Shown piece after piece: positions 11,702-16,128 of a stretch of 64,000 bases of DNA; within the stretch, counting starts at the first letter, position 1; each line of letters starts with the position of its first letter. Source of the stretch: Oscillatoria princeps RMCB-10 (lineage in GTDB: Bacteria > Cyanobacteriota > Cyanobacteriia > Cyanobacteriales > Oscillatoriaceae); assembly GCA_019359235.1 (NCBI GenBank), contig JAHHHT010000003.1, positions 62,001 to 126,000 on the forward strand. Reading direction: 5' to 3'. The notes below the pieces were generated by a model. That model saw nothing but the letters and a program-made list of their open reading frames with translations, ran no database searches and was not told where the DNA came from. The position numbers were made by a program, and so were the translations under genes.

Positions 11702-12406
11702 ATGACTGCCGAAAGCCAACTCATCTCCGGCAAGGTCATTCGGGCGATTGTCAAACGGCCCTTTCAGGGTCTCGCATTGAGTGGTCTAAACGGAGAGTTT
11801 TCTAAGCGGCTGTTCGATATTGTGTTTTCGCTAGCCGTTCTGATCCTGTTTTCCCCAGTTTACCTGCTCTTGGCTCTGCTGATCGCTCTGGCCTCACCGG
11901 GGCAAATTTTTTATGTCCAGGAACGGGTGGGGAAAAACCGCAGGCCCTTTGGCTGCATCAAATTCAGAACGATGGTCGAAAACGCCGACGAAATGTTGCA
12001 GGACATGATCGCCAGATACCCGCACCTGCGTCAAGAATTTGAGGATAACTTCAAGCTGAAGCACGACCCTAGAATAACCTGGATAGGTCGATTTTTAAGG
12101 CTGACCAGCTTGGATGAATTTCCGCAATTCTGGAACGTGTTGAAGGGGGACATGAGCGTTGTGGGGCCGCGACCTTTAGTGGTAGAGGAACTGCCAAAAT
12201 ACGGGCGTCACATCGATAAGGTGCTGACCATTAAGCCCGGGATTACAGGCTTGTGGCAAGTATCTGGGCGGAACGACATCCCCTATCCCCGCCGAGTCCA
12301 GATAGACGTTTACTATGTAAACTTCAGAAATTTTTGGATGGATCTGTGGCTGATTGTGAAAACAATTCGCGTTGTGATTTTTCCCAAAAATAATGGAGCC
12401 TACTAA
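11702..12406 (+). CDS. Polyprenyl-phosphate sugar-1-phosphate transferase (bacterial sugar transferase family)
   Basis: 234 residues. The ATG at 11702 has a GAAGGAG ribosome site. One hydrophobic segment (RLFDIVFSLAVLILFSPVYLLLALLIAL) is followed by the catalytic domain: QERVGKNRRPFGCIKFRTM, LRLTSLDEFPQFWNVLKGDMSVVGPRP and KPGITGLWQVSGRND. All are signature motifs of WcaJ/WbaP-like initiating transferases. It should start glycan assembly by moving a hexose-1-phosphate from a nucleotide sugar onto undecaprenyl phosphate. The N-terminal multi-TM domain of long WbaP proteins is absent, so it is the short monotopic form. Confidence 0.9.
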   Translation: MTAESQLISGKVIRAIVKRPFQGLALSGLNGEFSKRLFDIVFSLAVLILFSPVYLLLALLIALASPGQIFYVQERVGKNRRPFGCIKFRTMVENADEMLQDMIARYPHLRQEFEDNFKLKHDPRITWIGRFLRLTSLDEFPQFWNVLKGDMSVVGPRPLVVEELPKYGRHIDKVLTIKPGITGLWQVSGRNDIPYPRRVQIDVYYVNFRNFWMDLWLIVKTIRVVIFPKNNGAY

Positions 12407-12913: not shown

Positions 12914-15043
12914 ATGACGGAACGCAAGCGAGCCCTAATCACAGGCATTACAGGTCAAGACGGCTCCTACTTGAGCGAGCTGTTGCTCGAAAAGGGGTAT
13001 GAGGTTCACGGGATTATCCGGCGGACTTCGACGTTTAACACTGACCGGATTGACCATATCTATGTAGACCCTCACAATGAGGGTGCCCGGCTGTTCCTGC
13101 ACTACGGTGACTTGACCGATGGCGTCACCCTGCGCCGGATTCTGGAGGAAGTCAAGCCGGTAGAAATTTACAACTTGGGCGCTCAATCCCATGTGCGGGT
13201 GAGTTTTGACGCACCGGAATATACGGTTGATACGGTGGGGATGGGCACCCTGCGCCTGCTGGAAGCGATTCGGGACTACCAGCACCGCACCGGCATTCAG
13301 GTGCGCTTCTACCAAGCCGGCTCGTCTGAGATGTTTGGCTTGGTGCAGGAGATACCGCAGAAAGAGACGACGCCGTTTTATCCGCGCAGCCCCTACGCCT
13401 GCGCCAAGATGTACGCCCACTGGCAAACGGTGAACTATCGGGAATCCTACGGACTGTTTGCCTGTAATGGCATACTGTTCAACCACGAGTCGATCGTTGG
13501 TCACAGCCCTGTGATCGTTCGCAAGAATGGCCTGATTGACATTTTGCCTATCGAGGATGTTGTTCCCCACACGAAAGCTCCCAGTCACGGCAACCGTTAT
13601 ACCACTAACCTAGCTGTTGAAAACCAATTTGAAACCTGGGATGCCAACGGATGGGTCAAGGTAACTTGCATGACGGCTTATTGGAATGGATTCAAGCGAA
13701 AGCCAAATAAAACAGTGCATCAGATTGCCGCTAGGGGAGCGGTTTTCCATGCCACCAGCGAGCATGTGGTTTTTGTAGACTCCGGTGAAGGTGCGACTGA
13801 AAAGCCAGCCGGTGAGGTGAAAGTTGGGGAATCCCTGGCACTGATTGACCTGCCTCAGCCGACTGAGCAGATTGACATGACCGAAACGGAGGCTTGGCTG
13901 CTGGGCATAATCGCTGCAGAGGGCTATGTCAGCGAAGAAGGGAAGGTGCAGGTGACCAACCAAGACTCCGCCTTGCTTGACCGGGTGGCGGCGTCGTGGC
14001 GGAAGGTTGCCGGTGGGACATCTTCACGCTATGTTGCTCCCAGCGGTTTTGAGAATGGTGGGGATGCGATTCAACTGGGGCTGAATGGCAATCGCGCCTA
14101 CGGTCGCTATTTGCGAGATTCTCTGTACACCCGATCGGGTGACAAACGCATTCCCAAACGGGTGCTGAACGCTTGCGAGCGGGAGCGTTTGGCGTTTTTA
14201 GAGGGATTTCATGCCGGTGACGGTTTGAAGAGCACCCCTTGCACCTACGAGTTTCAGGGATTCAGGACAGCTTCTGCGGTAATAGCGGCGGGTCTGTACT
14301 GGATGGCGCTGACGACACTCAATCAGCGGGCAATTATTTGCACGGAAGACCGCGAGGGACGGCTTTACTACCAAATTAATCTCAATTCACCGGCACCCGG
14401 GAATAAAGGACAGCACCTGGTCAGACCACTGGCAGAGGTGGTCAAGGCAGAAACGGTGAATTACGACGGTTGGCTCTTTGACCTAGCAACCACAACCGGC
14501 ACGTTTCATGCAGGTGTTGGGCAGGGTTGGATACACAACAGCCCGCGTCGCGGTGAGACGTTCGTCACCCGCAAGATTACCCGGGCGCTCGCCCGCATAG
14601 TCGCCGGCAAACAGAAAAAACTCTACCTGGGCAACCTGGATTCCAAGCGCGACTGGGGCTACGCCAAGGACTACGTGCGGGCGATGTGGCTGATGCTGCA
14701 GCAAGAGCAGCCCGACGATTACGTGATCTCCACCGGCGAAACTTATTCCGTGCGAGAGTTTCTCGATGTGGCGTTCAAGTATGTCAATTTAGACTGGCAG
14801 GATTATGTGGAGTTTGACCCGCGCTACCTGCGCCCTGCTGAGGTTGACCTGCTAATCGGCGACTCCACAAAGGCGCGGGAGAAATTAGGCTGGCAACCCT
14901 CCGTCACTTTTGAGGAGTTGGTTGCTTTGATGGTAAAAGCTGACTTAGAAGCCCTAGGACTAGAATCACCCAGCGGGGATTCGATTCCGTCGCTGAAGGA
15001 TGTGGCTTTTATCCGTCAAGATGCGGGCAGCCGGTTTGACTGA
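12914..15043 (+). CDS. gmd: GDP-mannose 4,6-dehydratase precursor interrupted by an intein
   Basis: 709 residues: a 359-residue enzyme plus a 350-residue intein. The host is a short-chain dehydrogenase: NAD(P)-binding GITGQDGSYL at 11-20, RRTSTFNTDR, the active-site Ser of AGSSEMFG (about 137-138) and the Y161-x3-K165 pair. The conserved NHESPRRGE motif is split after NHE (residue 192) and resumes as SPRRGETFVTRKI at 543. Without the insert the length equals ordinary Gmd. After splicing it converts GDP-mannose to GDP-4-keto-6-deoxymannose, the substrate of the GDP-fucose synthase encoded 140 bp downstream. The reading frame is continuous throughout. Confidence 0.93.
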   Translation: MTERKRALITGITGQDGSYLSELLLEKGYEVHGIIRRTSTFNTDRIDHIYVDPHNEGARLFLHYGDLTDGVTLRRILEEVKPVEIYNLGAQSHVRVSFDAPEYTVDTVGMGTLRLLEAIRDYQHRTGIQVRFYQAGSSEMFGLVQEIPQKETTPFYPRSPYACAKMYAHWQTVNYRESYGLFACNGILFNHESIVGHSPVIVRKNGLIDILPIEDVVPHTKAPSHGNRYTTNLAVENQFETWDANGWVKVTCMTAYWNGFKRKPNKTVHQIAARGAVFHATSEHVVFVDSGEGATEKPAGEVKVGESLALIDLPQPTEQIDMTETEAWLLGIIAAEGYVSEEGKVQVTNQDSALLDRVAASWRKVAGGTSSRYVAPSGFENGGDAIQLGLNGNRAYGRYLRDSLYTRSGDKRIPKRVLNACERERLAFLEGFHAGDGLKSTPCTYEFQGFRTASAVIAAGLYWMALTTLNQRAIICTEDREGRLYYQINLNSPAPGNKGQHLVRPLAEVVKAETVNYDGWLFDLATTTGTFHAGVGQGWIHNSPRRGETFVTRKITRALARIVAGKQKKLYLGNLDSKRDWGYAKDYVRAMWLMLQQEQPDDYVISTGETYSVREFLDVAFKYVNLDWQDYVEFDPRYLRPAEVDLLIGDSTKAREKLGWQPSVTFEELVALMVKADLEALGLESPSGDSIPSLKDVAFIRQDAGSRFD
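13490..14539 (+). other. Intein with LAGLIDADG homing endonuclease inside Gmd
   Basis: In-frame 350-residue insert (Gmd residues 193-542). Splicing blocks: block A starts with Ser193 (SIVGHSPVIVRKNG), block B holds T281-x2-H284 (ATSEHVVF), block F is DLATTTGTFHAG, and block G is GWIHN with His541 and Asn542 followed by extein Ser543. All nucleophiles needed for class 1 splicing are present. Between the splicing halves are two LAGLIDADG-like helices, LLGIIAAEGY (Glu336) and FLEGFHAGDG (Asp436), so a dodecapeptide endonuclease that looks intact is encoded. The site in a highly conserved active-site motif is typical of inteins. Confidence 0.92.
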
Positions 15044-15183: not shown

Positions 15184-16128
15184 ATGACAGCGCTAGATTT
15201 AAAAGACAAGCGGATTCTGGTAACAGGTGGGGCTGGTTTCTTGGGCCGGCAGGTGATAGCTCAGCTGTGCCAAGCGGGGGCTGACCGCGAGAAAATTGTG
15301 GTGACGCGCTCGCGAGACTGCGATCTGCGGGTAATGGAGAACTGCCAGCGTGCAGTACAACAGCAAGACGTTGTGATTCACCTCGCCGCCCGCGTCGGGG
15401 GCATTGGGCTGAATCGGGAAAAGCCGGCTGAGCTATTTTACGACAATTTGATGATGGGGGCGCAGCTGATTCACGCCGCCTATGAAGCTGGGGTGGAAAA
15501 GTTCGTCTGTGTCGGGACAATCTGCGCCTATCCCAAGTTTACGCCGGTGCCTTTTAAGGAGGAGGATCTGTGGAATGGCTATCCGGAGGAGACAAACGCT
15601 CCTTACGGGGTTGCCAAGAAAGCTCTGCTGGTGCAAATCCAGTCTTACCGGCAGCAGTACGGGTTTAATGGCATCTATTTGCTGCCGGTGAATTTGTATG
15701 GACCGGAGGATAATTTTGACCCCCGCAGTTCCCACGTCATCCCTGCCTTAATCCGCAAGGTGTACGAGGCGCAGGTCAGGGGTGAAAAGCAGCTGCTGGT
15801 GTGGGGCGATGGCAGTCCTTCGCGGGAGTTTCTCTATGTGGATGATGCGGCGCGGGGGATTGTTATGGCTACTCTATCCTACAGTGACTCGGAGCCGGTG
15901 AATTTGGGAACCCATTTTGAAATTACCATCCGGGATTTGGTGGAACTGATCTGCGAACTGATGGAATTTGATGGTGAACTTGTCTGGGAAACGGACAAGC
16001 CGAACGGTCAGCCGCGCCGGTGTTTGGATACCGAACGGGCGAAGAAGGCGTTTGGCTTTACGGCGCAGATGGAGTTCAAGCAGGGGCTGAAGAATACCAT
16101 TGACTGGTATCGCCAGCACGCTGAGTAA
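15184..16128 (+). CDS. fcl: GDP-L-fucose synthase
   Basis: 314 residues, extended short-chain dehydrogenase. Rossmann motif VTGGAGFLG (13-21), [12 protein letters not shown], the catalytic region [11 protein letters not shown] and the Y141-x3-K145 pair (PYGVAKKA), then [14 protein letters not shown], all match the GDP-4-keto-6-deoxymannose 3,5-epimerase/4-reductase family (Fcl/WcaG). It takes the Gmd product to GDP-L-fucose with NADPH. It lies just after gmd on the same strand; a strong hairpin terminator follows at 16144. Confidence 0.92.

Follow-up and report, generated by a model that had tools for sequence, protein, structure and literature searches.

The window analyzed here is a stretch of 64,000 nucleotides from Oscillatoria princeps RMCB-10 (contig JAHHHT010000003.1, positions 62,001 to 126,000) and is part of an 8.49-Mb genome (G000). 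It contains an open reading frame (ORF) of 709 amino acids (aa) at 12914-15043 on the plus strand that encodes a GDP-mannose 4,6-dehydratase (Gmd) carrying an insert. The insert (13490-14539) comprises 1050 nt in 350 codons, is stop-free and in frame, and sits exactly between the NHE and SPRRGE residues of Gmd. The flanking exteins matched TIGR01472 (Gmd) with 552.7 bits (cutoff, 415) and Pfam GDP_Man_Dehyd with an E value of 2.3e-144, each in two stretches. Coordinates, frame, and flank matches agree with the in-frame 350-codon insert that a first-pass annotation of this DNA had described. The insert is confirmed to be an intein with a LAGLIDADG endonuclease domain, as that annotation had proposed: its splicing residues and both acidic endonuclease residues are present, homologues occupy the same site, and empty alleles exist. 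The predicted masses are 38.3 kDa for the intein, 41.2 kDa for the spliced Gmd, and 79.5 kDa for the precursor. The annotation had taken the host for an archaeon. The host is a cyanobacterium of the same order as Synechocystis salina LEGE 00031, Spirulina sp. CS-785/01, and an Oscillatoriaceae cyanobacterium, and this kinship with named cyanobacterial genomes rules out an archaeal origin.

All of the splicing residues that had been claimed were located in the translation. They are Ser1 (TCG), T89-S-E-H92 (the T-x2-H of block B), the terminal His349-Asn350, and Ser+1 (AGC). The intein fits class 1, with a nucleophile at residue 1, the block B TxxH, the His-Asn end, Ser+1, a modeled Hint fold, and empty alleles with a precise boundary. 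It is not of class 3: Ser1 is present, and there is no Cys after residue 284 and hence none in block F. It contains four cysteines (60, 229, 251, and 284), none of them at either splice junction. It has the residues of the Ser1/Ser+1 subgroup (Ser1 and Ser/Thr+1), and the four internal cysteines remain.

The endonuclease domain appears to be intact. Both LAGLIDADG-type helices expected from the annotation were found with their acidic residues, Glu144 and Asp244; in the predicted model, the helices at 132-144 and 230-242 lead into these two residues. The two helices with acidic ends and the modeled fold are consistent with a LAGLIDADG homing endonuclease, which would be expected to cleave the empty allele. 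Fifteen endonuclease-intact rows define 64 invariant columns in the endonuclease region, 24 in the C-terminal Hint region, and 43 in the N-terminal Hint region. The window copy retains 64/64, 24/24, and 37/43 of these, respectively. Among PDB sequences, the best single-sequence match of the insert had an E value of 0.0078, and an 18-row profile matched 2cw7 at 3.1e-6. The latter is PI-TkoII/PI-PkoII, a Ser1/Ser+1 class 1 intein. The window intein differs from it in coming from an otherwise Cys1 bacterial family and in its sequence (22% identity over the aligned part), and it has no identified counterpart of the "NX" histidine discussed below. The TliVMA intein with endonuclease (7qss and 7qsu) lies in another host protein and at another site, and it shows 19% identity.

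Intein-free alleles, which the annotation had recommended looking for, were retrieved from two genomes of the same genus (G001 and G002). Both encode Gmd without the insert at 96-98% protein identity and ~93.5% DNA identity, and the sequence after the site is SARRGE in G001 and SPRRGE in G002. Window positions 13487-13489 and 14540-14551 differ from the G002 empty allele at five of these 15 junction bases, all synonymous. The differences are only suggestive of a short conversion tract, as the stretch was chosen post hoc.

At an E value of 1e-10 the intein was found in one of eight genomes of the family, the window's own (three of the eight are in one genus, own included). The genome-contig scan yielded 12 loci from 35 candidate stretches, and 12/12 loci were in Gmd at the same site. 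Profile searches retrieved the Gmd intein from 7/386 genomes of the phylum sample. In the order sample, which overlaps with it, 20/388 genomes gave matches, of which 19 were in Gmd and one (L153) was in another protein. Matches occurred in 2/350 genomes of the phylum of L021 and in 1/235 genomes of the phylum of L026, this one being L026's own. Including the window, distinct bacterial copies come from 29 genomes (Cyanobacteria, Chloroflexota, and one Myxococcota metagenome-assembled genome). The other 28 copies are 53-82% identical to the window intein and share its codon boundary. The host of one copy (L034) is unsure, as the genome that it comes from has 9% contamination and the L034 Gmd resembles that of Chloroflexota.

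Ten cyanobacterial copies (L143-L152) no longer have both of the acidic motif residues, lacking either one or the pair. Nine of them are 329-332 aa long, and L143 is 357 aa. They retain 34-40/43 invariant columns in the N-terminal Hint region, 20-21/24 in the C-terminal Hint region, and 35-46/64 in the endonuclease. Eight (L144-L151) come from genomes of genus g172 and encode inteins of 329 aa that have no acidic endonuclease residues and retain most splicing positions. Judged from their sequences, the g172 copies represent a stage of decay within the homing cycle. The loss of homing residues alongside retained splicing residues is an argument that members of this family splice.

Same-site Gmd inteins were also retrieved from 18 viral contigs in IMG/VR (L120-L137). 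They share the insertion codon with the window copy and differ from it at residue 1, which is Cys in 14, Thr in 4, and Ser in none. The window intein as a query found one viral relative, L027. The pattern G-x-LFNHEC, which selects Cys1 by design, gave 14 viral contigs, and 14/14 encode Gmd with a Cys1 insert at the site. The L125 and L126 contigs contain only the first junction. A looser pattern admits Cys, Ser, Thr, and a few others at residue 1 and requires Ser/Thr (not AGY) and Pro at 6-7, so that inteins with other residues there escape it. It gave 16 contigs, comprising 12 already found and 4 new ones (L134-L137), all with Thr1 and ending in HN/SPRRG. The 16 complete viral inteins are 31-43% identical to the window copy. 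The Thr1 inteins (L134:207-2501, L135, L136, and L137; NHE/T...) have an intact TxxH. To our knowledge, Thr at intein residue 1 is rare or unreported. PMC7664689 gives residue 1 of class 1 as Cys or Ser, whereas the term "Thr1" occurs twice in PMC10189870.

L134 encodes a terminase large subunit (PHROG; E value, 1.4e-28), and L027 encodes a head maturation protease; these two contigs, at least, thus resemble phage DNA. The remaining contigs are classed as viral by IMG/VR only. A portal- or capsid-like reading of two L134 ORFs, one L124 ORF, and one L127 ORF found no PHROGs match and was dropped. Two phage Gmds contain a second intein, at L027:2282-5623 (..YNAG/C..N/SSEEYG) and in L123 (..YQA/C..N/STSELFG). 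It is located at the S/T-S-E motif of Gmd, which we take to be catalytic. In L127:6309-10078 and L124:765-3706, the intein-bearing gmd is near an fcl-like gene (nucleotide-sugar epimerase, phrog_540), as in bacteria. At least 597 viral Gmd loci were present. In the annotated collection, phage gmd is mostly uninterrupted, with a single place covering at least 80% of the query in 87/88 records. No close match to the window copy was found in phages (7 records, all <60% identity) or among plasmids, which gave a single weak record. When alignment A1 was used for a viral scan, 0/18 stretches were confirmed, probably owing to its two narrow patterns. Viral scans with the L027 intein and with its second intein returned the L027 contig only.

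The intein tree contained 39 rows (23 bacterial and 16 viral), with L144 and L151 as the only g172 copies. The bacterial inteins fall on one side of a branch with support of 100/99. If the root is on the viral side, the Chloroflexota and Myxococcota inteins nest within the cyanobacterial ones (98/96 and 100/99). Trees of 18 copies were also built for inteins and exteins, each with 3/15 inner branches starred. In the extein tree, support of 95/98 sets the cyanobacterial Gmd exteins apart, and the Myxococcota Gmd groups with them (99/100). The Myxococcota intein, unlike its extein, joins Chloroflexota (96/99). This conflict points toward horizontal spread. Transfer of the Gmd intein between phyla is the simplest reading, and between phages and bacteria it could have run in either direction.

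The window copy has Ser1, while 28/28 other bacterial copies have Cys1. Its sister in the 39-intein tree is L140 (82% identity; branch, 99/93), which has Cys1. The window departs at five columns that are invariant in 18 others, all within residues 1-64 (C1S, T6S, R28T, V49T, and T64Y). It has 28 private changes at well-conserved columns, of which 19 are in residues 1-99 (expected, 30%; P = 3.4e-5). The within-lineage test covered 10 cyanobacterial rows, leaving out L035 and the ten decayed copies, and none of the nine other rows was enriched in residues 1-99 at P < 0.05 (lowest, 0.069). A Fisher test of private changes between the window and L140 was not significant (16/22 versus 4/8; P = 0.38). 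The ratio of differences in residues 1-99 to those in residues 131-305 was 1.33-2.49 between the window and its eight closest rows and 0.49-1.46 for the 28 pairs among those eight. Between the window and L140, residues 1-125 have a nonsynonymous divergence (dN) of 0.186 and a synonymous divergence (dS) of 1.373, and the endonuclease has 0.066 and 1.365, respectively. The endonuclease is under constraint, and so are the exteins, whose dN/dS is ordinary, with purifying selection as in the intein-free congeners.

The insert in gmd is probably a mobile intein of class 1 whose LAGLIDADG endonuclease looks intact and whose N-terminal nucleophile has switched from Cys to Ser. It is expected to be excised by splicing. 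The Hint domain would act after translation, beginning with an N-O acyl shift at Ser1 and proceeding through transfer to Ser+1 and cyclization of Asn350. An acyl shift would then restore a normal peptide bond, yielding Gmd of 359 aa and releasing the 350-aa intein. Once released, the intein would cut intein-less gmd alleles, and repair would copy it in. The family is shared with gmd-carrying phages and has probably moved among Cyanobacteria, Chloroflexota, and Myxococcota. In the window lineage, the change from Cys to Ser would have been accompanied by a burst of substitutions in the splicing region at the N terminus. Cys was presumably the ancestral residue 1, and the burst may have compensated for Ser1.

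Several points weigh against this interpretation. The search against intein and Hint profiles that the annotation had suggested bore it out in part: a weak LAGLIDADG_3 match was found, but no Hint family was among the Pfam matches of the insert up to an E value of 1. The LAGLIDADG_3 match (E value, 2.4e-4) had 21.7 bits, below the cutoff of 22.5, and sequence profiles by themselves give weak support. According to PMC10189870, Ser1/Ser+1 inteins as a group carry an extra "NX" histidine that was needed in the three tested and is preceded by Arg/Lys. The window copy has no His at the candidate NX positions 62-65 or 70-71, although the alignment of this part is uncertain and the 5o9i and by-eye alignments place the motif differently. 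The same source reports that C1S made several Cys1 inteins inactive. The five departures at columns invariant in the 18 other copies could equally mean weakened splicing. In an earlier comparison with 16 others, L035 had eleven departures against seven in the window, yet it has Cys1, so many departures by themselves are no mark of a nucleophile switch. The extein tree carries a long-branch warning, with the long branches meeting at the Myxococcota row. The genome also encodes a Gmd-like intein-free paralogue (L010; TIGR01472, 354 bits, under the cutoff of 415) that might buffer the loss of Gmd.

The Ser1 copy may instead be impaired in splicing, though we judge this unlikely. The N-terminal Hint region would then be relaxed, little active Gmd would be made, and the paralogue would serve or the loss of fucose would be tolerated. 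The inactive C1S inteins, the paralogue, and the excess of N-terminal amino acid change at equal dS (dN/dS, 0.186/1.373 versus 0.066/1.365) all fit this explanation. However, the extein is still under purifying selection, and the C-terminal Hint region retains all of its invariant positions. To go from TGY to TCG, two bases must change, and TxxH, HN, and the residue at +1 are retained. The sequence would fit either compensation for Ser1 or weaker splicing as the cause of the burst.

Less likely still, residues 1-99 would have been acquired by recombination with some unsampled intein that occupies this site and has Ser1. These are just the residues where the excess difference clusters, but dS against L140 is equal in both parts (1.37 and 1.37), though near saturation, and Ser1 is absent from both the 28 other bacterial copies and the 18 viral ones. 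Recombination as the cause of the N-terminal excess is disfavored by the equal dS. Selection is the likelier cause than import because dS is equal in both parts while dN differs.

Splicing that responds to redox, metal, or temperature and thereby adjusts the supply of GDP-fucose is improbable. Conditional splicing is described for another intein, that of DnaB, in PMC6195587, and zinc-transport genes are located near gmd, as neighbors only. The annotation had suggested a response to redox, for which no evidence was found: the residues at the junctions are Ser1 and Ser+1, and the absence of Cys from both weakens the case for redox control. The occurrence of the Gmd intein in the phylum (7/386) and order (19/388) samples and the intact endonuclease are more in keeping with a mobile element than with a fixed switch. 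An assembly or sequencing artifact is hardly credible; no point in its support was found, the frame is open throughout with every invariant endonuclease position in place, and homologues occupy the same site in other assemblies.

A bolder version of the nucleophile switch is possible, and we offer it tentatively. One lineage at one codon boundary would have used three nucleophiles: Ser in the window, Thr in one clade of phages, and Cys in the remaining bacteria and the majority of the phages found. The window would then hold a natural switch from Cys to Ser with compensating T6S, R28T, V49T, and T64Y and a still active endonuclease. If true, this would be a natural route to a nucleophile change that laboratory attempts have often failed to achieve. 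The window copy and L140 are a close pair differing in the catalytic nucleophile, and the Ser1 copy may show how inteins can change a key chemical residue.

An intein in gmd is not in itself a novelty. The annotation knew of no described Gmd intein, but PMC9403480 describes inteins of type II in the gmd genes of Thermosynechococcus from Taiwan and India, which rules out an unknown Gmd intein. Like the window copy, these are cyanobacterial gmd inteins with an endonuclease domain. The window copy differs in its cyanobacterial host and has Ser1; for the Thermosynechococcus inteins, the passage considered gives neither the insertion codon nor the first residue. The portion of PMC11467894 considered contains no Gmd intein. 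Phage Gmd inteins, spread across phyla, Ser1 or Thr1 at this site, and double Gmd inteins were not found in searches of open-license literature, none of which was aimed at each of them individually. Within this family, a metabolic gene shows the homing cycle at several stages, with empty alleles, intact endonucleases, and decayed copies that keep most splicing positions. The phage copies, some beside fcl-like genes, offer a vehicle for transfer between phyla.

The features of the locus are listed in Table 1. A glycosyltransferase is also encoded upstream of gmd. The NHESPRRGE loop of Gmd presumably binds NADP and substrate, so the unspliced Gmd would be expected to be inactive. Dependence of the GDP-fucose supply on splicing, as the annotation had it, is plausible, as the fcl-like gene follows gmd, although the genome also has the intein-free paralogue L010.

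Table 1. Features of the intein-bearing gmd locus in the window
Feature	Coordinates	Strand	Evidence
Bacterial sugar transferase, upstream of gmd	11702..12406	+	PF02397, E value 8e-68
Gmd N-extein, 192 codons, end ...GILFNHE	12914..13489	+	TIGR01472 best stretch, ORF 5-204; 97-98% identity to intein-free alleles
Gmd intein, 350 codons, class 1 type, Ser1	13490..14539	+	Same-site homologues, empty alleles, fold
Ser1 codon TCG	13490..13492	+	All 28 other bacterial copies have Cys (TGC/TGT)
N-terminal Hint region, residues 1-125, with private changes C1S, T6S, R28T, V49T, T64Y	13490..13864	+	Comparison with same-site copies
Block B, T89-S-E-H92	13754..13765	+	T89 and H92 invariant among 18 aligned copies
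LAGLIDADG homing endonuclease domain, ~residues 131-305	13880..14404	+	LAGLIDADG_3 at 135-168; I-DmoI VIA matches over 127-302; 64/64 invariant positions
LAGLIDADG helix 1 (...AWLLGIIAAEG), acidic Glu144	13883..13924	+	Model helix 132-144; alignment
LAGLIDADG helix 2 (RLAFLEGFHAGDG), acidic Asp244	14177..14224	+	Model helix 230-242; D244 invariant among 18 aligned copies
C-terminal Hint region, blocks F and G, end His349-Asn350	14405..14539	+	24/24 invariant positions kept
Gmd C-extein, Ser+1 (AGC), PRRGE, through stop codon	14540..15043	+	TIGR01472; 96-97% identity to intein-free alleles
GDP-L-fucose synthase-like gene (fcl-like), next step after Gmd	15184..16128	+	NF047922, E value 1.7e-88, 297 bits versus cutoff of 500; Epimerase family

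Intein-like inserts are also present elsewhere. In the same genome, GyrB (L002; G000:C8:107059-110460) contains one with LAGLIDADG-like motifs, and PurL (FGAM synthase) (L004; G000:C40:61952-65191) contains one of ~480 aa. L153, from another cyanobacterium of the order, has an intein-like insert in what we take to be a dCTP-deaminase-like protein.
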